From Halomonas denitrificans (GTDB taxonomy: Bacteria; Pseudomonadota; Gammaproteobacteria; Xanthomonadales; Wenzhouxiangellaceae): a stretch of 64,000 nucleotides of DNA. Below are positions 2,755 to 58,321 of the stretch, one piece after another. The notes under the pieces are model-generated. The model was not told the DNA's origin, did no database searches, and saw only the letters and a program-made list of their open reading frames with translations. The position numbers and the translations under genes were made by a program. Location of the stretch: assembly GCA_019800895.1 (NCBI GenBank), contig JAHVKF010000003.1, positions 744,001 through 808,000 on the forward strand, given 5' to 3'. The first letter of the stretch is position 1. Every line of letters begins with the position of its first letter.

Positions 2755-3993
2755 GTGAACGCCCGCCCGGAGTCTTCCGTCGGTATCGATGCCGCGGCGT
2801 TTGCCGGGCCGCGCGGTTGCCTCGACCTGGCCGACCTGGCCGCTGCGCGCGGCATCGATCCCGCCAAGTTTCTCCAGGGCCTCGGGCAGCGTCGGATGGC
2901 GATCGCGTCGCCGTGCGAGGACACGGTCTCGCTGGCGGTCGCGGCGGCCGACCGGGCGCTTTCGGCGTTCGACATCGATCCCGGCGACATCGGTACGTTG
3001 ATCGTCGGCACCGAGACGGGCGTCGACCACAGCAAGCCGGTCGCGGTCTACGTGCACGAACTTCTCGGACTGTCCGAGCGCTGCCGAACGTTCGAAACCA
3101 AGCACGCCTGCTACGGCGCGATGGCCGGCCTGACCGCCTCGATGGACTGGATCGCTTCCGGACGCGCCCGCGGGCGCAAGGCGCTGGTCATCGCTTCCGA
3201 CATCGCGCGCTACGGCCTGGGCACTCCGGGTGAGCCCACCCAGGGCGCCGGCGCCGTCGCGTTGGTGATCGATCGACGGCCGCGGCTGCTCACGATCGAC
3301 CCCTCGCGGATCGGCGACTTCACGCGCCAGGTGATGGATTTCTGGCGGCCGCTGTACTCGAAGGTGGCCTTCGCGGACGGCCACTATTCGATCCGGTGCT
3401 ATCTCGACGCATTGACCGCCGCCCGGGCCGATGCGGTCGGACCCGGCGCCGAGCTGCTCGACGACCTGGCCGCGTGCCTGTATCACGTGCCGTTCGTCAA
3501 GATGGCCAAGAAGGCGCACCAGCGCCACCTGGAGATCGAGCGCGGTGCGCCGCTGGACCTCGAACGCGACGCCGACCGGCACCTGCTGGCCGAGGACCAC
3601 GGCCGACGCGTCGCGCCCTGGTTGGAGCTGAATGCGGAGATCGGCAACATCTACACCGGGTCGCTGTTCCTGGCCCTGATCGACCTGTTGCGCCAGGCGG
3701 CCGACCGGTTCGCGGGCCGGTCGATCAGCCTGTTTTCCTACGGGAGTGGCTGCGGCGCCACGTTCTGTCTCGGCGAAGTGGCCGAAGCCGCGTCGGACTG
3801 GTCCTCGGCGCTGGACCCCGCGGACGACCTGGCGCGCCGTCGCATGCTGGATATCACGGACTACGAGCGCTTCGTCCGTGACGGCGAGTCGGCCGATACC
3901 GCCGAGTCGCTCGACCCGGCCGCCTACGGGCTGGGGGAAGGGCTGTTCTACGTGGGCACGGTCGACCACCAGAGGCGGTACGTGCGGGGCTAG
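2755..3993 (+). CDS. mvaS: hydroxymethylglutaryl-CoA synthase
   Basis: A 412-residue thiolase-fold enzyme that condenses acetoacetyl-CoA with acetyl-CoA to HMG-CoA, the first committed mevalonate-pathway step. The N-terminus reads VGIDAAAF. The nucleophilic cysteine lies in KHACYGAMAGL (Cys119), preceded by the usual TVSLAVAAADRAL and VGTETGVDHSKP segments. The FVKMAKKAHQRH stretch matches the C-terminal domain of bacterial MvaS. The GTG at 2755 was chosen because AGGGG lies about 8 nt upstream and the protein then begins just before the VGID motif. An ATG at 2662 would overlap the preceding gene without homology. It is about 50 kb from the rest of the mevalonate genes in this window (52.6-57.6 kb). 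Function is clear from motifs; the start is an inference. Confidence 0.92.
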   Translation: MNARPESSVGIDAAAFAGPRGCLDLADLAAARGIDPAKFLQGLGQRRMAIASPCEDTVSLAVAAADRALSAFDIDPGDIGTLIVGTETGVDHSKPVAVYVHELLGLSERCRTFETKHACYGAMAGLTASMDWIASGRARGRKALVIASDIARYGLGTPGEPTQGAGAVALVIDRRPRLLTIDPSRIGDFTRQVMDFWRPLYSKVAFADGHYSIRCYLDALTAARADAVGPGAELLDDLAACLYHVPFVKMAKKAHQRHLEIERGAPLDLERDADRHLLAEDHGRRVAPWLELNAEIGNIYTGSLFLALIDLLRQAADRFAGRSISLFSYGSGCGATFCLGEVAEAASDWSSALDPADDLARRRMLDITDYERFVRDGESADTAESLDPAAYGLGEGLFYVGTVDHQRRYVRG

Positions 3994-51623: not shown

Positions 51624-52496
51624 TCAGAAGCGGCGCCGGACGATCCTGGCGCCGAGCGCGGCGAGGTCCTCTCGTGCGGGCCCCGGCGGCAGGCGCTCCA
51701 GCGCGCCCCGAGCCTCGTCGAGCAGGGCGTCGGCGCGCGCGCGGGCGGCCTCGACGCCGTTCAGGGCGGGCCAGGTGGCCTTGCCCCGGGCCTGGTCGGA
51801 ACCGGCCGGTTTGCCCAGCTCCTCGGTGCTGCCTTCCACGTCCAGCAGGTCGTCGATGACCTGGAATGCGACGCCGATCGCGTCGCCGAAGTCGGCCAGC
51901 GCCAGCCGCTCGGCTTCGGAGGCCGGGCCCAGGTGCGCCGGCAGTTCGACCGCGGCGCGGATCAGCGCGCCGGTCTTGCCCCGGAACATCGCCTCCAGCA
52001 GGTCCGTATCCGGCGTTTCCTTCTCGAAGGCCAGGTCCAGCACCTGGCCGCCGACCATGCCGGTCGAGCCCGCCGCGTCGGCCAGGCCGGCGATCACCGA
52101 GGCCGGCATCCCGGCCCGCGCCAGTCCGCCGAAGGCCAGGGTCAGCAGCGCGTCGCCGGCGAGGATGGCCGTGGCCTCGTCCCAGGCCCGATGCACGGTG
52201 GGTTTTCCGCGCCGGAGGTCGTCGTCGTCCATCGCCGGCAGGTCGTCGTGGACCAGGGAATAGCAGTGGACGAGCTCGACGGCTGCGGCGATCGGGGCGA
52301 CCGCGTCGTCGGAAAGCCCGAGCACGCTGCCGGCGGCGAACGCCAGCTGGGGACGGATGCGCTTGCCGCCGTTGAACACCGCGTAGCGCATCGCCGCGTG
52401 CAGCGGGGCTGGGCGCGTGGCCTCGGCGGGCAGCCAGGCGTCGAGTTCGCGTTCGACGCGCTCGATCCATGCGGCGCTGCGGGCGGGTTCGTTCAT
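51624..52496 (-). CDS. ispA: farnesyl diphosphate synthase (polyprenyl synthetase family)
   Basis: A 290-residue all-alpha prenyltransferase. The first Asp-rich motif is VHDDLPAMDDDDLRRG (DDx4D type, typical of bacterial FPPS), and the second is FQVIDDLLDVEG. Other conserved blocks are NGGKRIRPQL, MVGGQVLDL and GKTGALI. It condenses DMAPP with two IPP to FPP. The start is ambiguous (52508 or 52496); the second has a GGAACG element upstream. It is divergent from the mevalonate operon, whose first gene starts about 100 bp away, so the shared intergenic region may coordinate synthesis of IPP and its use. Confidence 0.93.
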   Translation of the reverse strand: MNEPARSAAWIERVERELDAWLPAEATRPAPLHAAMRYAVFNGGKRIRPQLAFAAGSVLGLSDDAVAPIAAAVELVHCYSLVHDDLPAMDDDDLRRGKPTVHRAWDEATAILAGDALLTLAFGGLARAGMPASVIAGLADAAGSTGMVGGQVLDLAFEKETPDTDLLEAMFRGKTGALIRAAVELPAHLGPASEAERLALADFGDAIGVAFQVIDDLLDVEGSTEELGKPAGSDQARGKATWPALNGVEAARARADALLDEARGALERLPPGPAREDLAALGARIVRRRF

Positions 52497-52603
52497 CGGG
52501 CGTTCCATGGGCGGGCCGGACGGGACCGGGCCAGTGTACGAGCGGCCGGGATGCGCTGCTACACTTCGGGCGGTGTTCCTCCAGCCGGTGTCCCGGTCCG
52601 CCC

Positions 52604-53614
52604 ATGCCCGCTTCCCCCCGAGAACTCGACGCGCCGGCCGCGGCCTCGGCCCGCGCCGGCGCGAACTTCGCGCTGATCAAGTACTGGGGCAAGCGTGACG
52701 TCGCGCTGAACCTGCCGGACGTCGGCTCGATCTCGCTGACGCTGGAGGCACTGCACACGGAAACCACCGTGCGCTTCGACCCGACACTGGCCGCCGACGA
52801 GCTGGTCCTGGACGGCGAACCGGCCCCGGAGCGGGCGCCCCGGATCTCGACGTTCCTCGACGTCGTTCGCGAACGGGCAGGCGTCCGCGCCTTCGCCCGC
52901 GTCGAGACCGCCAACAACTTCCCGACCGCCGCGGGCCTCGCGTCCTCGGCCTCCGGGTTCGCGGCGCTGACCGTCGCTGCGGCCGCGGCGCTGGAACAGG
53001 ACTGGGACGAGCGAACGCTCTCGGAACTGGCACGGATCGGCTCCGGCTCGGCGGCGCGATCGATCTTCGGCGGCTTCGTCGAGATGAAGCGTGGTCGCTA
53101 CAGGACCGGGTCCGACAGCGTGGCGAAGCCGATCGCCGATGCGCGCCACTGGCCGCTGCAGGTGGCCGTGGCGATCACCACGCGCGCCGAGAAGGCGGTC
53201 GGCTCGACCGAGGGCATGCAGCGCACCGCCGAGACCTCGCCGTTCTATCGCGCGTGGGTCGAGAACCAGGAAAACGACCTGGCCGAGGCGCGCGACGCGA
53301 TCGCGAACAAGGACTTCGAGCACCTGGCGGAGGTCTCCGAGGGCAGCGCGCTGGCGATGCATGGCCTGGCGATGTCGGCCCGGCCGGGCCTGCTGTACTT
53401 CAACGCCACGACCATGGAATGCCTGCATCGGATCCGCGCCCTGCGCGCCGACGGCGTGCCGGTGTTCTTCACCGTCGACGCGGGCCCGCAGGTCAAGGCG
53501 ATCTGCGAGTCGGTGGCGCTGCCCACCGTGCGCGACGCCCTGCGCGACGTGGACGGCGTGCTCGACGTGGTCGAAAGCGGCCTGGGCCCCGGCGCGGCCC
53601 TGTACGCGCCTTGA
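52604..53614 (+). CDS. mvaD: diphosphomevalonate decarboxylase
   Basis: A 336-residue GHMP-superfamily enzyme. It has FALIKYWGKRD near the N-terminus (Lys26), PTAAGLASSASGFAAL (the ATP-binding loop, ~107-122), SGSAARSIFGGF with Arg152, the Ser201-containing GSTEGM segment and VDAGPQVKA with Asp292. These are the decarboxylase-specific Arg, Ser and catalytic Asp. The enzyme converts mevalonate-5-diphosphate to isopentenyl diphosphate with ATP. The ATG at 52604 is the first before the homology. The stop is shared with the mvaK2 start (TTGA). It is the first gene of a four-gene run encoding the lower mevalonate pathway. Confidence 0.95.
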   Translation: MPASPRELDAPAAASARAGANFALIKYWGKRDVALNLPDVGSISLTLEALHTETTVRFDPTLAADELVLDGEPAPERAPRISTFLDVVRERAGVRAFARVETANNFPTAAGLASSASGFAALTVAAAAALEQDWDERTLSELARIGSGSAARSIFGGFVEMKRGRYRTGSDSVAKPIADARHWPLQVAVAITTRAEKAVGSTEGMQRTAETSPFYRAWVENQENDLAEARDAIANKDFEHLAEVSEGSALAMHGLAMSARPGLLYFNATTMECLHRIRALRADGVPVFFTVDAGPQVKAICESVALPTVRDALRDVDGVLDVVESGLGPGAALYAP

Positions 53615-54630
53615 ACATCGTCCATACCAGCGCGCCGGGCAAGCTGCTGCTGTTCGGCGAATACGCCGTGCTGGCCGGCGGCACGGCGGTGGTCATGGCG
53701 GTGGATCGACGCGCCGCGGTATCGATCGAGACGGCGGATGCGGAGGACCTCCACGTCGCCGCCCCGCAGCTGGGTCTGGCCGGTGACGGGCTGACCTTCG
53801 ATCCCGATCGGCCGGACCGCCTGCTCGGCCTGACGGGCCGCCTGCTGGCCGCTCGCCTCGAACACTACGGAATCGAGGCGACCGGGCTGCGGATCGAGAT
53901 CGATACGGGCGCCTTGTTCGACGCCGACGTGAGGGGGCGGCCCGTCAAGCTCGGCCTGGGCTCCAGTGCCGCGGTCGCCGCGGCGCTGGACACGGCGCTG
54001 GCGGCTTTGGTCGAAGCGCCCCTGCCGACCTTCGACGACCTGCTTCCGGCCTACCGGAACGCCCTGGGCGCCCCGGCCAGCGGGGCCGACCTGGTCGCCA
54101 GCCTGCAGGGCGGGCTGCAACGCATGAGGTCCGACGGGGGCACGACGAGAGCTTCGACGCGCGCCCTGGCCTGGCCCGAAGGACTCCACGCGCGACCGAT
54201 CTGGGTCGGCCGGCCGGCCTCGACGCCGGCCTTCGCCGCGGCGTTCGAGACCTGGCGCAACAAGTGTCCCGACGCCGCAGCCGACTGGGTCGAACGGATG
54301 GACGGCATCACCGGGCGCGCCCTGGACCGGGGCACCGCCGCGGCCTGGTGTGCTGCCGCGGCCGCCTGGAGCGAAGGGCTGTTCCAGCTGCAGTCGGCCC
54401 TCGGGTTGGAGATCGTGACCGCCGCGCACCGGGACCTGGCGGCGCACGCGGCCGACCTCGGCGTGGCCTACAAGACCTGCGGCGCCGGCGGCGGCGATTT
54501 CGGCATCGCGCTGTCGGACGACCCGGACGCGCTCCGGGCCTTTTCCGGGCGGGCTTCGGAACGCAATGGGCGTCCGGTAGAATTGGACGTCGATCCGGCC
54601 GGTGCGCGCGTCGAGCCGCCGGCGCGCTGA
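53611..54630 (+). CDS. mvaK2: phosphomevalonate kinase
   Basis: A 339-residue GHMP kinase. It begins HTSAPGKLLLFGEYAVLAGG (residues 5-24), and has the ATP loop KLGLGSSAAVAAAL (~113-126), a substrate-binding NALGAPASGADLVASLQGG segment and the C-terminal KTCGAGGGDFGIAL motif. It phosphorylates mevalonate-5-phosphate. The only start with the conserved N-terminus is the TTG at 53611, overlapping the mvaD stop as TTGA, so its translation probably depends on termination of mvaD. There is an 18-bp gap to the following fusion gene. Confidence 0.93.
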   Translation: MNIVHTSAPGKLLLFGEYAVLAGGTAVVMAVDRRAAVSIETADAEDLHVAAPQLGLAGDGLTFDPDRPDRLLGLTGRLLAARLEHYGIEATGLRIEIDTGALFDADVRGRPVKLGLGSSAAVAAALDTALAALVEAPLPTFDDLLPAYRNALGAPASGADLVASLQGGLQRMRSDGGTTRASTRALAWPEGLHARPIWVGRPASTPAFAAAFETWRNKCPDAAADWVERMDGITGRALDRGTAAAWCAAAAAWSEGLFQLQSALGLEIVTAAHRDLAAHAADLGVAYKTCGAGGGDFGIALSDDPDALRAFSGRASERNGRPVELDVDPAGARVEPPAR

Positions 54631-54647
54631 TTTCCCAGGAGCGTTTC

Positions 54648-56993
54648 GTGGCACGAATCCCCAAGTTCTACAAGCTGTCGGTGACCGAGCGCGTGCGTGC
54701 GGTGCGCCAGCAGGGCCTGCTGTCGCCGCAGGATTTCCAGGCGCTGGTCAGCGGTGAGCACACGCTGGACGTCGACTCCGCCGACAAGATGATCGAGAAC
54801 GTGATCGGCGTGATGGGGCTGCCGGTCGGGCTGGGGCTGAATTTCCTGATCAACGGCCGCGAGTACGCGGTGCCCCTGGTCGTCGAGGAGCCGTCGATCG
54901 TCGCCGCGCTCAGCTCGGCGGCCAAGGTGGCGCGGGCCGGCGGCGGCTTCGAGGTCGAGAGCACGGAGCCGATTCTCATCGGCCAGATCCAGGTCGTCGA
55001 CGTGCCGCATCCGCAGCGGGCAAAGGCCGCGCTGCTGCAGCGCAAGGACGAGATCATCAATCTCGCCAACAGCCTGCACCCCAACATGGTCGCGCGCGGC
55101 GGCGGCGCCAAGGACCTCGAGGTCCACATCCACCCGTCATCGGGGCAGGGCGGCGACATGGTCGTGGCCCACCTGCTGGTCGATACGCGCGACGCGATGG
55201 GCGCCAACCTGGTCAACACGATGTGCGAAGGCGTCGCCTCGCTGGTCGAGAACATCGCCGAAGGCAAGGTGTTCCTGCGCATCCTGTCGAACCTGACCGA
55301 CCGGGCCATGGTCCGGGCGAAGGTGGCGATCCCGCTCGACGCGCTGGCCGGCAAGGGCTTCGACGGCGAGCAGGTCCGCGACGGCATCATCCTGGCCAAC
55401 GAGTTCGCGTCGATCGACCCCTATCGCGCGGCGACCCACAACAAGGGGATCATGAACGGAATCGACGCGGTTGCCCTGGCCACGGGCAACGACTGGCGCG
55501 CGATCGAGGCCGGCGCGCACGCCTGGGCCGCGCGCGGCTCGCACTACGCGTCGCTGACCCAGTGGACCCGCGGCGACGACGGCGCGCTGCTCGGCCAGCT
55601 CGAGATTCCCCTGAAGGTGGGCATCGTCGGCGGTCCGCTCCAGTCCAATCCCACGGTCGGCATGAACCTGCGCCTGCTCGGCGTCAAGACGGCGCGCGAG
55701 CTGGCCGAGGTGATGGGTGCGGTCGGCCTGGCGCAGAACTTCTCGGCGGTGCGCGCCCTGGTCACGGAAGGCATCCAGCAGGGCCACATGACCCTGCACG
55801 CACGCAGCGTGGTCGCCGCCGCCGGCGCCCCGCCGGAAATCTTCGACACGGTGGTCGACCGCCTGATCGCCTCCGGCGAGATCAAGATCTGGAAGGCGCG
55901 CGAGCTGGTCGGGGAGCTGGCCCGCAAGGGCCTGAACGAACGCCTCGAAGGCGGCGCCGAGCGCCAGGACGACAACCGCCCGACCGAGCTCGATGCGCCT
56001 GCGATGGCCGCCGGCCACGGCAAGATCATCCTGCTCGGTGAGCACGCCGTGGTCTACGGCCGCCACGCGGTGGCCGCGCCGGTGCCGCTGGCCATCCAGG
56101 CCCACGTCGAGAAGGGCGGCGACGGGGTCCAGATGATCATTCCGCGCTGGGGCGTGGAGCAGCGCCTGCACACGCGCAGCGAGAAGCAGCACTCCTTCGA
56201 CAAGTCGATGAACCTGATCCTGGAGACGCTGGGCCTGCAGGACGAAGCGATGCGGATCGAGATCTTCCCCAACGTGCCGCGCGCGATGGGCCTGGGCGGC
56301 TCGGCCGCGCTGGCGGTCGCGACGATCCGCGGGCTGGACCGGTGCTTCGAGCTGGGCCTCGACGACGAACAGGTCAACGCGCTGGCCTTCGAGTGCGAGA
56401 AGATCGCCCACGGCACGCCCTCGGGCATCGACAACACCCTGTCCACCTACGGCCGCGCGATGCTGTTCCGTTCCGGCGACGACCCGCTGCGCAGGGAGAT
56501 CGAGATCGCCACCCCGGTCGACCTGGTGGTCGGAATTTCGGGCATCGAGAGCCTGACGGCTGCGACCGTGGCCCGCGTGCGCAAGGCGCGCGAGGCGCAC
56601 CCGGCGCTGTACGACGACATCTTCGACCAGATCGATTCGCTGGTGCTGCAGGGCGTCGATGCGCTGGCCGACGTGTCCGTGGACAACCGGCTCGAAACGC
56701 TGGGCGAATTGATGAACGTCTGCCAGGGCCTGCTGAACGCGATGCAGGTCTCGAGCTGGGAACTGGAGGAAATGATCCAGATCGCGCGCCGCGAGGGCGC
56801 CCTGGGCGCCAAGCTGACCGGCGGCGGGGGCGGCGGCTCGATCATCGCCCTGTGCCCGCCGGGCGGAGAAACCGCGCCGAAGATCGAAGCGGCGCTGAAG
56901 GAGGCCGGCTACCAGGCCGTGCCGGTGACGATTGGCGGTGACGGCGGCGGTGACCGCGGTGACGGCGGCGGTCCGGCAGGGGGTGGGGCATGA
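54648..56993 (+). CDS. HMG-CoA reductase (class II)-mevalonate kinase fusion
   Basis: A 781-residue bifunctional protein. Residues ~1-440 are class II HMG-CoA reductase: ENVIGVMGLPVG (50-61), Glu81 in EEPSIVAA, RDAMGANLVNTM, Lys266 in HNKGIMNGID, Asp282 in GNDWRA and His380 in QQGHMTLHAR. These correspond to the catalytic Glu83, Lys267, Asp283 and His381 of the Pseudomonas mevalonii enzyme. After a short acidic/polar linker (~436-454), residues ~455-765 are mevalonate kinase: GHGKIILLGEHAVVYG, GLGGSAALAVATI, HGTPSGIDNTLSTYG (with the catalytic Asp) and LTGGGGGGSIIAL. A 20-residue Gly/Asp tail follows. CAGGAG precedes the GTG at 54648. HMG-CoA would pass directly to mevalonate-5-phosphate on one chain. 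Confidence 0.95.
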   Translation: MARIPKFYKLSVTERVRAVRQQGLLSPQDFQALVSGEHTLDVDSADKMIENVIGVMGLPVGLGLNFLINGREYAVPLVVEEPSIVAALSSAAKVARAGGGFEVESTEPILIGQIQVVDVPHPQRAKAALLQRKDEIINLANSLHPNMVARGGGAKDLEVHIHPSSGQGGDMVVAHLLVDTRDAMGANLVNTMCEGVASLVENIAEGKVFLRILSNLTDRAMVRAKVAIPLDALAGKGFDGEQVRDGIILANEFASIDPYRAATHNKGIMNGIDAVALATGNDWRAIEAGAHAWAARGSHYASLTQWTRGDDGALLGQLEIPLKVGIVGGPLQSNPTVGMNLRLLGVKTARELAEVMGAVGLAQNFSAVRALVTEGIQQGHMTLHARSVVAAAGAPPEIFDTVVDRLIASGEIKIWKARELVGELARKGLNERLEGGAERQDDNRPTELDAPAMAAGHGKIILLGEHAVVYGRHAVAAPVPLAIQAHVEKGGDGVQMIIPRWGVEQRLHTRSEKQHSFDKSMNLILETLGLQDEAMRIEIFPNVPRAMGLGGSAALAVATIRGLDRCFELGLDDEQVNALAFECEKIAHGTPSGIDNTLSTYGRAMLFRSGDDPLRREIEIATPVDLVVGISGIESLTAATVARVRKAREAHPALYDDIFDQIDSLVLQGVDALADVSVDNRLETLGELMNVCQGLLNAMQVSSWELEEMIQIARREGALGAKLTGGGGGGSIIALCPPGGETAPKIEAALKEAGYQAVPVTIGGDGGGDRGDGGGPAGGGA

Positions 56994-57583
56994 GCGCGTC
57001 CGCCGACCGAGCCGTCAACGAGAAGGTCTCCTTCGACGACGAACCGCTGATCCTGGTCGACGAGAACGACCGGGAGATCGGCCACCGCGACAAGGTCGAT
57101 TGCCACACGGGCCACGGCACGCTGCACCGGGCCTTTTCCGTGTTCCTGTTCGACGAGCAGGGCCGGGTATTGCTCCAGCGCCGCTCGAACGAGAAGCCGC
57201 TGTGGCCGTTGTACTGGTCGAACAGCTGCTGTTCCCACCCGCGCCGGGGCGAGGACCTCGACTACGCCACCGCCCGCCGCATGCGCGAGGAACTGGGTCT
57301 GGAGTCCGACCTCGAACGCCTCTACAGCTTCATCTACCAGGCCGACTTCGGCGACCGCGGCGCCGAGCACGAGTACTGCCATGTCTACATCGGCCGCGCC
57401 CGCGGCGAGGTCGAAGTCCACCCCGAGGAAATCGCCGAGTGGAAATGGATTTCTCCCGAAGACCTCGACGCCGAACTCGCCGCCCACCCCGAACGCTTCA
57501 CCCCCTGGTTCAAGATGGAATGGCTCGAACTGCGCACGACCTATGCGGATCGGGTGGAGGCGCTGGTCGGGGGGCGTGCCTGA
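56990..57583 (+). CDS. idi: isopentenyl-diphosphate delta-isomerase, type I
   Basis: A 197-residue Nudix-fold type I isomerase. GTLHRAFSVFLFD and WSNSCCSHPRRGED (Cys81 being the catalytic cysteine of the NSxCxHP motif) precede RMREELGLES (Nudix-like box) and EHEYCHVY with the catalytic Glu128. It interconverts IPP and DMAPP using Mg2+ or Mn2+, supplying ispA. Its ATG overlaps the fusion gene's stop (ATGA at 56990-56993). It is the last gene of the mevalonate run. Type I enzymes do not need FMN, unlike the type II isomerases that often accompany bacterial mevalonate operons. Confidence 0.96.
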   Translation: MSASADRAVNEKVSFDDEPLILVDENDREIGHRDKVDCHTGHGTLHRAFSVFLFDEQGRVLLQRRSNEKPLWPLYWSNSCCSHPRRGEDLDYATARRMREELGLESDLERLYSFIYQADFGDRGAEHEYCHVYIGRARGEVEVHPEEIAEWKWISPEDLDAELAAHPERFTPWFKMEWLELRTTYADRVEALVGGRA

Positions 57584-58321
57584 TTCCTTTTGGATGATGG
57601 ACGCGAAGATCGCAGAGCGGCAACGGGCGCGAAGGAAAAGCTTTGGGATTGAAAGTCGCTGGGCCCCGGCTCGAGGCCGGGGCGACGGAGCGGATCGGAT
57701 TGCCTGATTCTGTCGTCCCGCACTTGATGCGGGCCCCAGCCTTTGGCTTTGATCGGAGGGTAGTGCCAGCAACCTCCAGATGATCGGCGCGAAGAGGAGA
57801 AGGGGCGGAGGACGCGAAGGAAAACTGCGCAACAAGGATTTCTGTTGCACGTCGCATCGGCTGCCGACGGTTGCCGTAGGTTCAGATTGCCGTCGGCCTT
57901 CGAGCTGTTGCAAAGGTCCGTGGGGTTACGGTCGAAGTCGCTGGATCCCGCATCGAGTGCGGGACGACAGAATCAAGCAAACACAAACATTCCGTCGCCC
58001 GCCCCCGAGTGGGGGTCCAGCGACTTTCAGCTACATCGCGTTCCCTTCGCGGCATTGGCTGCCGACGGTTGCCGTAGGTTCGGATTGCCTTCGGCCTGCG
58101 AGCTGTTGCGAAGGTCCGTGGGGTTACGGTCGAAGTCGCTGGATCCCGCATCAAGTGCGGGACGACAGAATCAAGCAAAACACTCCGTCTCCCCGGCCTC
58201 GAGCCGGGGTCCAGAGACTTTCCTTTACATCGCTCTTCCTTTGCGTCCTCTGCCCCTTAGCGCCTTCGCGCCCATCAGCTAAAGGCTACGGCCACCCAAC
58301 CAGAACGAAGCCGGCCAGAGC
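57584..58321. other. non-coding region between idi and rluB
   Basis: It contains partial relatives of the 198-bp unit at 57630-57780 (GTCGTCCCGCACTTGATGCG at ~57714-57733), then the tandem pair. A run resembling CCTTTGCGTCCTCTGCCCC closes it. No gene or terminator hairpin specific to idi was found, though the many inverted DNA segments could serve. Confidence 0.6.
57859..58254 (+). repeat. tandem duplication of a ~198-bp unit downstream of idi
   Basis: GGCTGCCGACGGTTGCCGTA begins copy 1 at 57859 and copy 2 at 58057, giving a 198-bp period. Both copies carry GTGGGGTTACGGTCGAAGTC, the palindromic TCCCGCATC(A/G)AGTGCGGGA, and a closing GTCCAG(C/A)GACTTTC. They are around 85-90% alike by eye. 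No gene is supported here. Confidence 0.8.

Follow-up and report, generated by a model that had tools for sequence, protein, structure and literature searches.

Does one gene in Halomonas denitrificans encode two consecutive enzymes of isoprenoid synthesis in a single working protein? A sequence-only reading had proposed that a gene in the window (the whole 64,000-nucleotide stretch of DNA analysed here) joins a complete class II HMG-CoA reductase to a complete mevalonate kinase in one open frame. We found that it does, based on family models, key residues, fold, selection and a frame conserved in relatives. The gene starts with GTG and is translated without an internal stop into a protein of 781 amino acids (calculated mass 82.3 kDa), in which the reductase is followed by a flexible linker of approximately 25 residues and then by the kinase (Table 1). 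Its sequence makes it highly probable, in our estimate, that the product is one bifunctional enzyme. The N-terminal reductase would convert HMG-CoA to mevalonate, probably with NADPH, and the C-terminal kinase would convert mevalonate to mevalonate-5-phosphate. In this reading we infer the catalysis of both halves, the cofactor and the dimer geometry.

Table 1. Positions in the window of the fused gene, its parts and the genes that accompany it.
Feature	Positions	Strand	Remarks
HMG-CoA synthase-like gene	2779-3981	+	TIGR01835 339 bits, under cut-off 360; PF01154 102 bits, over cut-off 25
Farnesyl diphosphate synthase	51624-52508	-	Divergent neighbour; NF045485 305 bits, cut-off 275
mvaD, diphosphomevalonate decarboxylase	52469-53614	+	TIGR01240 295 bits, cut-off 171; start codon not settled
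Phosphomevalonate-kinase-like GHMP kinase (pmk-like)	53617-54630	+	TIGR01220 71 bits, below cut-off 166; start codon not settled
Shine-Dalgarno-like AGGAG	54637-54641	+	Six bases before the GTG start of the fused gene
Fused gene	54648-56993	+	781 aa plus stop; single open frame
Class II HMG-CoA reductase half	54648-55928	+	Residues 1-427; Glu81, Lys266, Asp282, His380; cofactor site 144-150
Linker	55929-56003	+	Residues 428-452; poorly conserved, disordered at 434-449
Mevalonate kinase half	56004-56918	+	Residues 453-757; Lys459, Glu465, GLGGSAA 548-554, Glu584, Asp595, KLTGGGGGG 722-730
C-terminal tail	56919-56990	+	Residues 758-781; Gly-rich, mostly disordered
idi, type I isopentenyl-diphosphate isomerase	56990-57583	+	TIGR02150 159 bits, cut-off 106

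Each half is an ordinary member of its own enzyme family. The proposed domain architecture held up against protein families: the reductase half scored 413 bits with its best model, TIGR00532 (cut-off 260; residues 2-385), and the kinase half 248 bits with TIGR00549 (cut-off 163; residues 457-735), each above the NCBIfam cut-off. Pfam gave the same two domains (reductase and GHMP), with no match to a thiolase domain. The top structural matches in Foldseek were class II reductases (P. mevalonii, 51-54% identity), followed by the mevalonate kinases of L. major and M. mazei. The P. mevalonii type shares its whole fold and catalytic residues with the reductase half (~52% identity overall), and differs from the window's protein in that the latter has NADPH-like residues in place of Asp146 and a kinase behind the flap. 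The kinase half shares fold and motifs with the two GHMP mevalonate kinases (29-33% identity), and differs from them in being attached to a reductase.

We found the same fusion in many other genomes. Pooling a scan with genome searches gave 133 loci, some of them overlapping or repeated, whose reductase match scored 180 bits or more; in 82 of these the kinase and the reductase share one open frame. This makes it very unlikely that chance or an assembly error produced the joined frame. We left out three loci that reach a contig end (L026, L063 and L070), one that overlaps L024 (L028), one with a frame change (L019) and one identical to L016 (L032), which gave 76 distinct complete fused relatives (below, fused rows). 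Four cultured species are among the carriers, Dyella monticola and three of Cryobacterium; metagenome bins with the fusion are labelled Calditrichota, Acidobacteriota and Planctomycetota, and such labels can be wrong. Separate, adjacent reductase and kinase genes do exist, in nine loci (L077, L079-L084, L087 and L088), and two such genes might have been joined by a sequencing or assembly error. However, the same fusion occurs in cultured isolates and many other assemblies, and we give such an error next to no chance; an assembly artefact was ruled out by the frame common to relatives. The fusion is real, old and common to bacteria of several groups.

The catalytic positions were intact in both halves of all fused rows. 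In the reductase half, the four residues named beforehand (Glu81, Lys266, Asp282 and His380) correspond in the alignment to residues 83, 267, 283 and 381 of P. mevalonii reductase and were present in 76/76 rows; passages of PMC10070635 describe the catalytic roles of Glu83, Lys267 and His381 in class II reductase. In the kinase half, Lys459, Glu584, Asp595 and Ser552 were likewise conserved in 76/76 rows. We take these to be GHMP kinase motif positions, with Lys, Glu and Asp presumably catalytic. Purifying selection acted on both halves, with dN/dS of 0.015-0.13 for the reductase and 0.015-0.21 for the kinase (11 pairs). The intact residues and the selection suggest that both halves are likely to be catalytically active. 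They also argue against the notion that one half is dead or purely regulatory, as does the finding that the fused protein had one match in its own genome and no second (a search whose coverage of GHMP kinases is incomplete, since it did not pick up the pmk-like gene); we consider that notion very improbable.

The fused gene lies in a cluster with the order mvaD-pmk-fusion-idi. The ATG of idi overlaps the stop codon of the fused gene. The pmk-like gene appears to be a divergent phosphomevalonate kinase, identified mainly by its position in the cluster. This order was common among fused loci with enough flanking sequence: idi was directly downstream of the fusion in 61/74, the pmk-like gene directly upstream in 58/73, and mvaD upstream in 32/40. 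The HMG-CoA synthase-like gene lies ~51 kb upstream of the fused gene in the same window. Scans of the locus found no promoter-like sites, and two terminator-like sites compared with a mean of 1.7 in shuffled sequences.

The best model for the reductase half, TIGR00532, carries the label 'degradative', which raises the question of direction: the reductase might degrade mevalonate, with the kinase acting as a scavenger. NADH-type class II reductases have Asp at position 146, and NADPH-type enzymes have Tyr, Pro and Ser at 146-148 and Arg at 152 (passages of PMC10070635). We found Asp at the 146 position in none of the 76 fused rows (His in 75, Asn in one), compared to 19/50 unfused reductase rows. 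The next cofactor positions were Pro in 74/76 fused rows and then Lys, Asn or Arg in 70/76, and Arg occupied the 152 position in 75/76. The site of the window's protein departs from the NADPH consensus in having His instead of Tyr at 146 and Asn at 148. The residue at position 146 does not fit the NADH-dependent, mevalonate-degrading type. Because of the cofactor residues and the biosynthetic gene cluster, NADPH-dependent synthesis is favoured; the fused reductase probably uses NADPH, and the family label is probably wrong for the fused clade.

Markers of the MEP pathway also bear on direction. We searched 41 genomes (the window's own and 40 relatives). The fusion was present in 26, two of them incomplete in draft assemblies (the gene is cut off by a contig end in G003 and has a frame change within its kinase part in G005). 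A twenty-seventh genome, G036, matched the fused protein only through a distant reductase (29% identity). Dxr was found in 15/41 genomes (14 over the cut-off, and a fragment in G040) and IspH in the same 15, and the 26 fusion carriers were exactly the genomes without Dxr and IspH; neither search found IspH or Dxr in the window's own genome. In family f1, the sole genome of 25 without the fusion, G011, has both. Within the order, then, the fusion marks genomes without MEP markers. The link is looser at greater distance: among 17 further carriers Dxr was present in six (G079, G769 and four Cryobacterium), or 6/43 overall. Dxr was also absent from 12/18 genomes with an unfused reductase, which indicates that its absence marks the mevalonate pathway and not the fusion as such. 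The absence of MEP markers from the 26 carriers of the order speaks against a degradative role.

In favor of that role is the distribution of HMG-CoA synthase. TIGR01835 (E <1e-30) and PF01154 detected a synthase in the same 15/26 carriers, and PF01154 detected none in the 15 non-carrier genomes. In the remaining 11 carriers (G003, G006, G010, G013, G014, G017, G018 and G020-G023), TIGR01835 gave at most weak matches and PF01154 none. Two of these, G017 and G022, are single-contig genomes, and all 11 also lack Dxr and IspH. The pathway therefore looks incomplete at its start in these carriers. These carriers may have a synthase so divergent that both models miss it; the alternative is that they obtain HMG-CoA from another source. 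Leucine breakdown supplies HMG-CoA in other organisms; we doubt that it does so in these 11. Taking cofactor site, gene cluster and MEP markers against the family label and the undetected synthases, we give a degradative reductase with a scavenging kinase very little credence.

What might the linkage between reductase and kinase add? Class II reductases function as dimers whose active site lies at the interface (passages of PMC12292504), and their C-terminal flap shuts over the active site and then shifts once more for product exit (passages of PMC10070635). AlphaFold2, with 46 aligned sequences, predicted two confident domains (mean pLDDT 86.7) and placed the flap helices at residues 376-391, 399-409 and 414-434. 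A flexible linker would join the kinase to the end of the mobile flap of the reductase. Because the kinase is attached just behind the flap, the linker should let it reach the place where mevalonate is released. We infer that the tether would hold the two activities near each other and in a one-to-one ratio. A further step, that the flap-borne kinase captures mevalonate as the flap opens to release product, is a tentative idea that we consider unlikely; the position of the kinase behind the flap follows from the sequence, and a kinetic gain from the tether does not.

Our results might also indicate that the fusion ensures only equal amounts of the two enzymes, with mevalonate diffusing freely and the tether bringing no catalytic gain. 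This is our preferred explanation minus its proximity step, and we judge its chances to be slightly better than even. It is consistent with the properties of the linker. A linker between the domains had been predicted, and we found one, of ~25 residues and not the ~20 claimed. Its mean identity to the other linkers in the fused rows was 8%, and its length between two fixed points was 12-88 residues (median 32; 41 in the window's protein). Linker dN/dS was ~0.95 in comparison with L002, and 0.24-2.9 in the eight of 11 pairs with estimable dS. The model gave pLDDT <50 at residues 434-449, and a pTM of 0.56 left the mutual placement of the two domains undefined. A long, variable, disordered linker and domains without a defined placement speak for equal amounts alone. 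In addition, separate adjacent genes suffice in Bacillaceae. In contrast, the 76 fused rows form one clade and have all retained the same linkage, which suggests, indirectly, some benefit beyond that of an operon.

Two metagenome-bin loci, L069 and L073, encode a fused reductase in which the flap that should follow the catalytic histidine is mostly missing. The kinase lysine comes 24 residues after the conserved LHAR motif in L069 and 20 in L073, whereas the window's protein has 72. In these two proteins, some of the space of the lost flap may be filled by the kinase. The Gly/Asp-rich tail that had been noted at the other end of the protein is real, and was disordered at residues 767-781 in the model; of four same-genus sequences compared, the window's protein and L002 were the only ones with a Gly-rich tail.

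A disordered linker could also be a place where the halves become separate proteins, by cleavage or by a second translation start. We found an in-frame ATG or GTG no more than 15 codons before the kinase lysine in 28/76 fused rows, including the window's own at 56004, and one genome (G012) has an extra free-standing kinase. However, only 4/76 had a Shine-Dalgarno-like run at the internal start, with none in the window's own genome, compared to 51/76 near the gene start, for which the search was more permissive. We consider separate products improbable, and a single bifunctional chain remains the reading that we prefer.

Trees of the two halves point to an old origin. In a quick tree of 126 reductase rows, which carries a long-row warning for L141, the 76 fused rows were on one side of one branch (support 100). 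In the free kinase tree, which left out two very long rows (L029 and L030), eight Bacillaceae kinases were placed among the fused rows on a branch of length 6.5; a quick tree with the two rows likewise needed two changes. The tree with the fused kinases as one clade was not rejected (p-AU 0.204). The fused kinases form a lineage far from the sampled unfused kinases. Within the fused rows the two halves were congruent: distances correlated at 0.94 (maximum 0.32 in 999 shuffles), the reductase and kinase trees shared 39/73 splits, and there was no conflict between the well-supported splits of the two halves (28 versus 25). The sequences are thus probably derived from a single old fusion, a single origin of the kinase half being compatible with its tree. 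The simplest reading is that the fusion arose once, long ago, and was handed down as one unit, with occasional transfer from one phylum to another. The kinase halves of four Cryobacterium loci (L065, L066, L068 and L072) were sister to Salinisphaera-like rows (support 100/100), which suggests a transfer between phyla in that case.

The fusion is uncommon in even samples of the class and the phylum. In the class sample, 10/369 genomes had it, including the window's own (nine complete, with G219 cut by a contig end); unfused class II reductases occurred in 18 genomes, a distant reductase in one and a kinase-like match alone in two, and the other 338 had no match at E 1e-20 or better with at most two candidates scored per genome. 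In the phylum sample, with the kinase half as query, the fusion was found in 2/398 genomes, again including the window's own, and a third genome had a 27% match. Thirty-seven plasmid records matched, none covering more than 80% of the query. The scan of one genome per species took the best 80 of at least 591 loci and favours fusions, because three of the six peptides used as queries come from the kinase.

Searches of an open-access library gave no description of a reductase-kinase fusion, and it may well be listed in subscription journals or architecture databases. MvaE of Enterococcus likewise combines two enzymes of the mevalonate pathway in one polypeptide, and one of the two is again a class II reductase. 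In MvaE a thiolase precedes the reductase and the steps are non-consecutive, whereas in the window's protein the kinase follows the reductase and the steps are consecutive; passages of PMC13001223 and PMC10070635 confirm the earlier description of MvaE as a fusion of thiolase and reductase. IspDF is also a fusion within the isoprenoid pathways, of non-consecutive steps in the MEP pathway. A 2026 review names MvaE and IspDF, and its passages on them name no reductase-kinase fusion (PMC13001223). Eight Bacillaceae loci (L079-L084, L087 and L088) have the same order, reductase and then kinase gene, but in separate frames with stops between them, and their kinases are 31-35% identical to the window's. 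A passage of the Wenzhouxiangella genome paper says that the mevalonate pathway and squalene synthase set the genus, which NCBI lists under Chromatiales, apart from Marinicella, and makes no mention of a fusion (PMC7691419). The window's own genome has two genes of the squalene/phytoene synthase family. The protein appears to be a natural, old version of an aim of pathway engineers, two successive mevalonate enzymes in one chain, and its natural linkers of different lengths offer a way to examine whether flux gains from tethering.

We made two further observations. In genome G012 (L024 and L028), a 320-codon open frame for a free-standing mevalonate kinase lies directly 3' of the fused gene; its later part is nearly identical to the fused kinase, and it is a tandem duplication of it. 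In the window, positions 57611-58262, between idi and rluB, hold a cluster of direct and inverted repeats with two 128-base copies that are 95% alike, and part of the repeat unit has 23 matches in the window's own genome.
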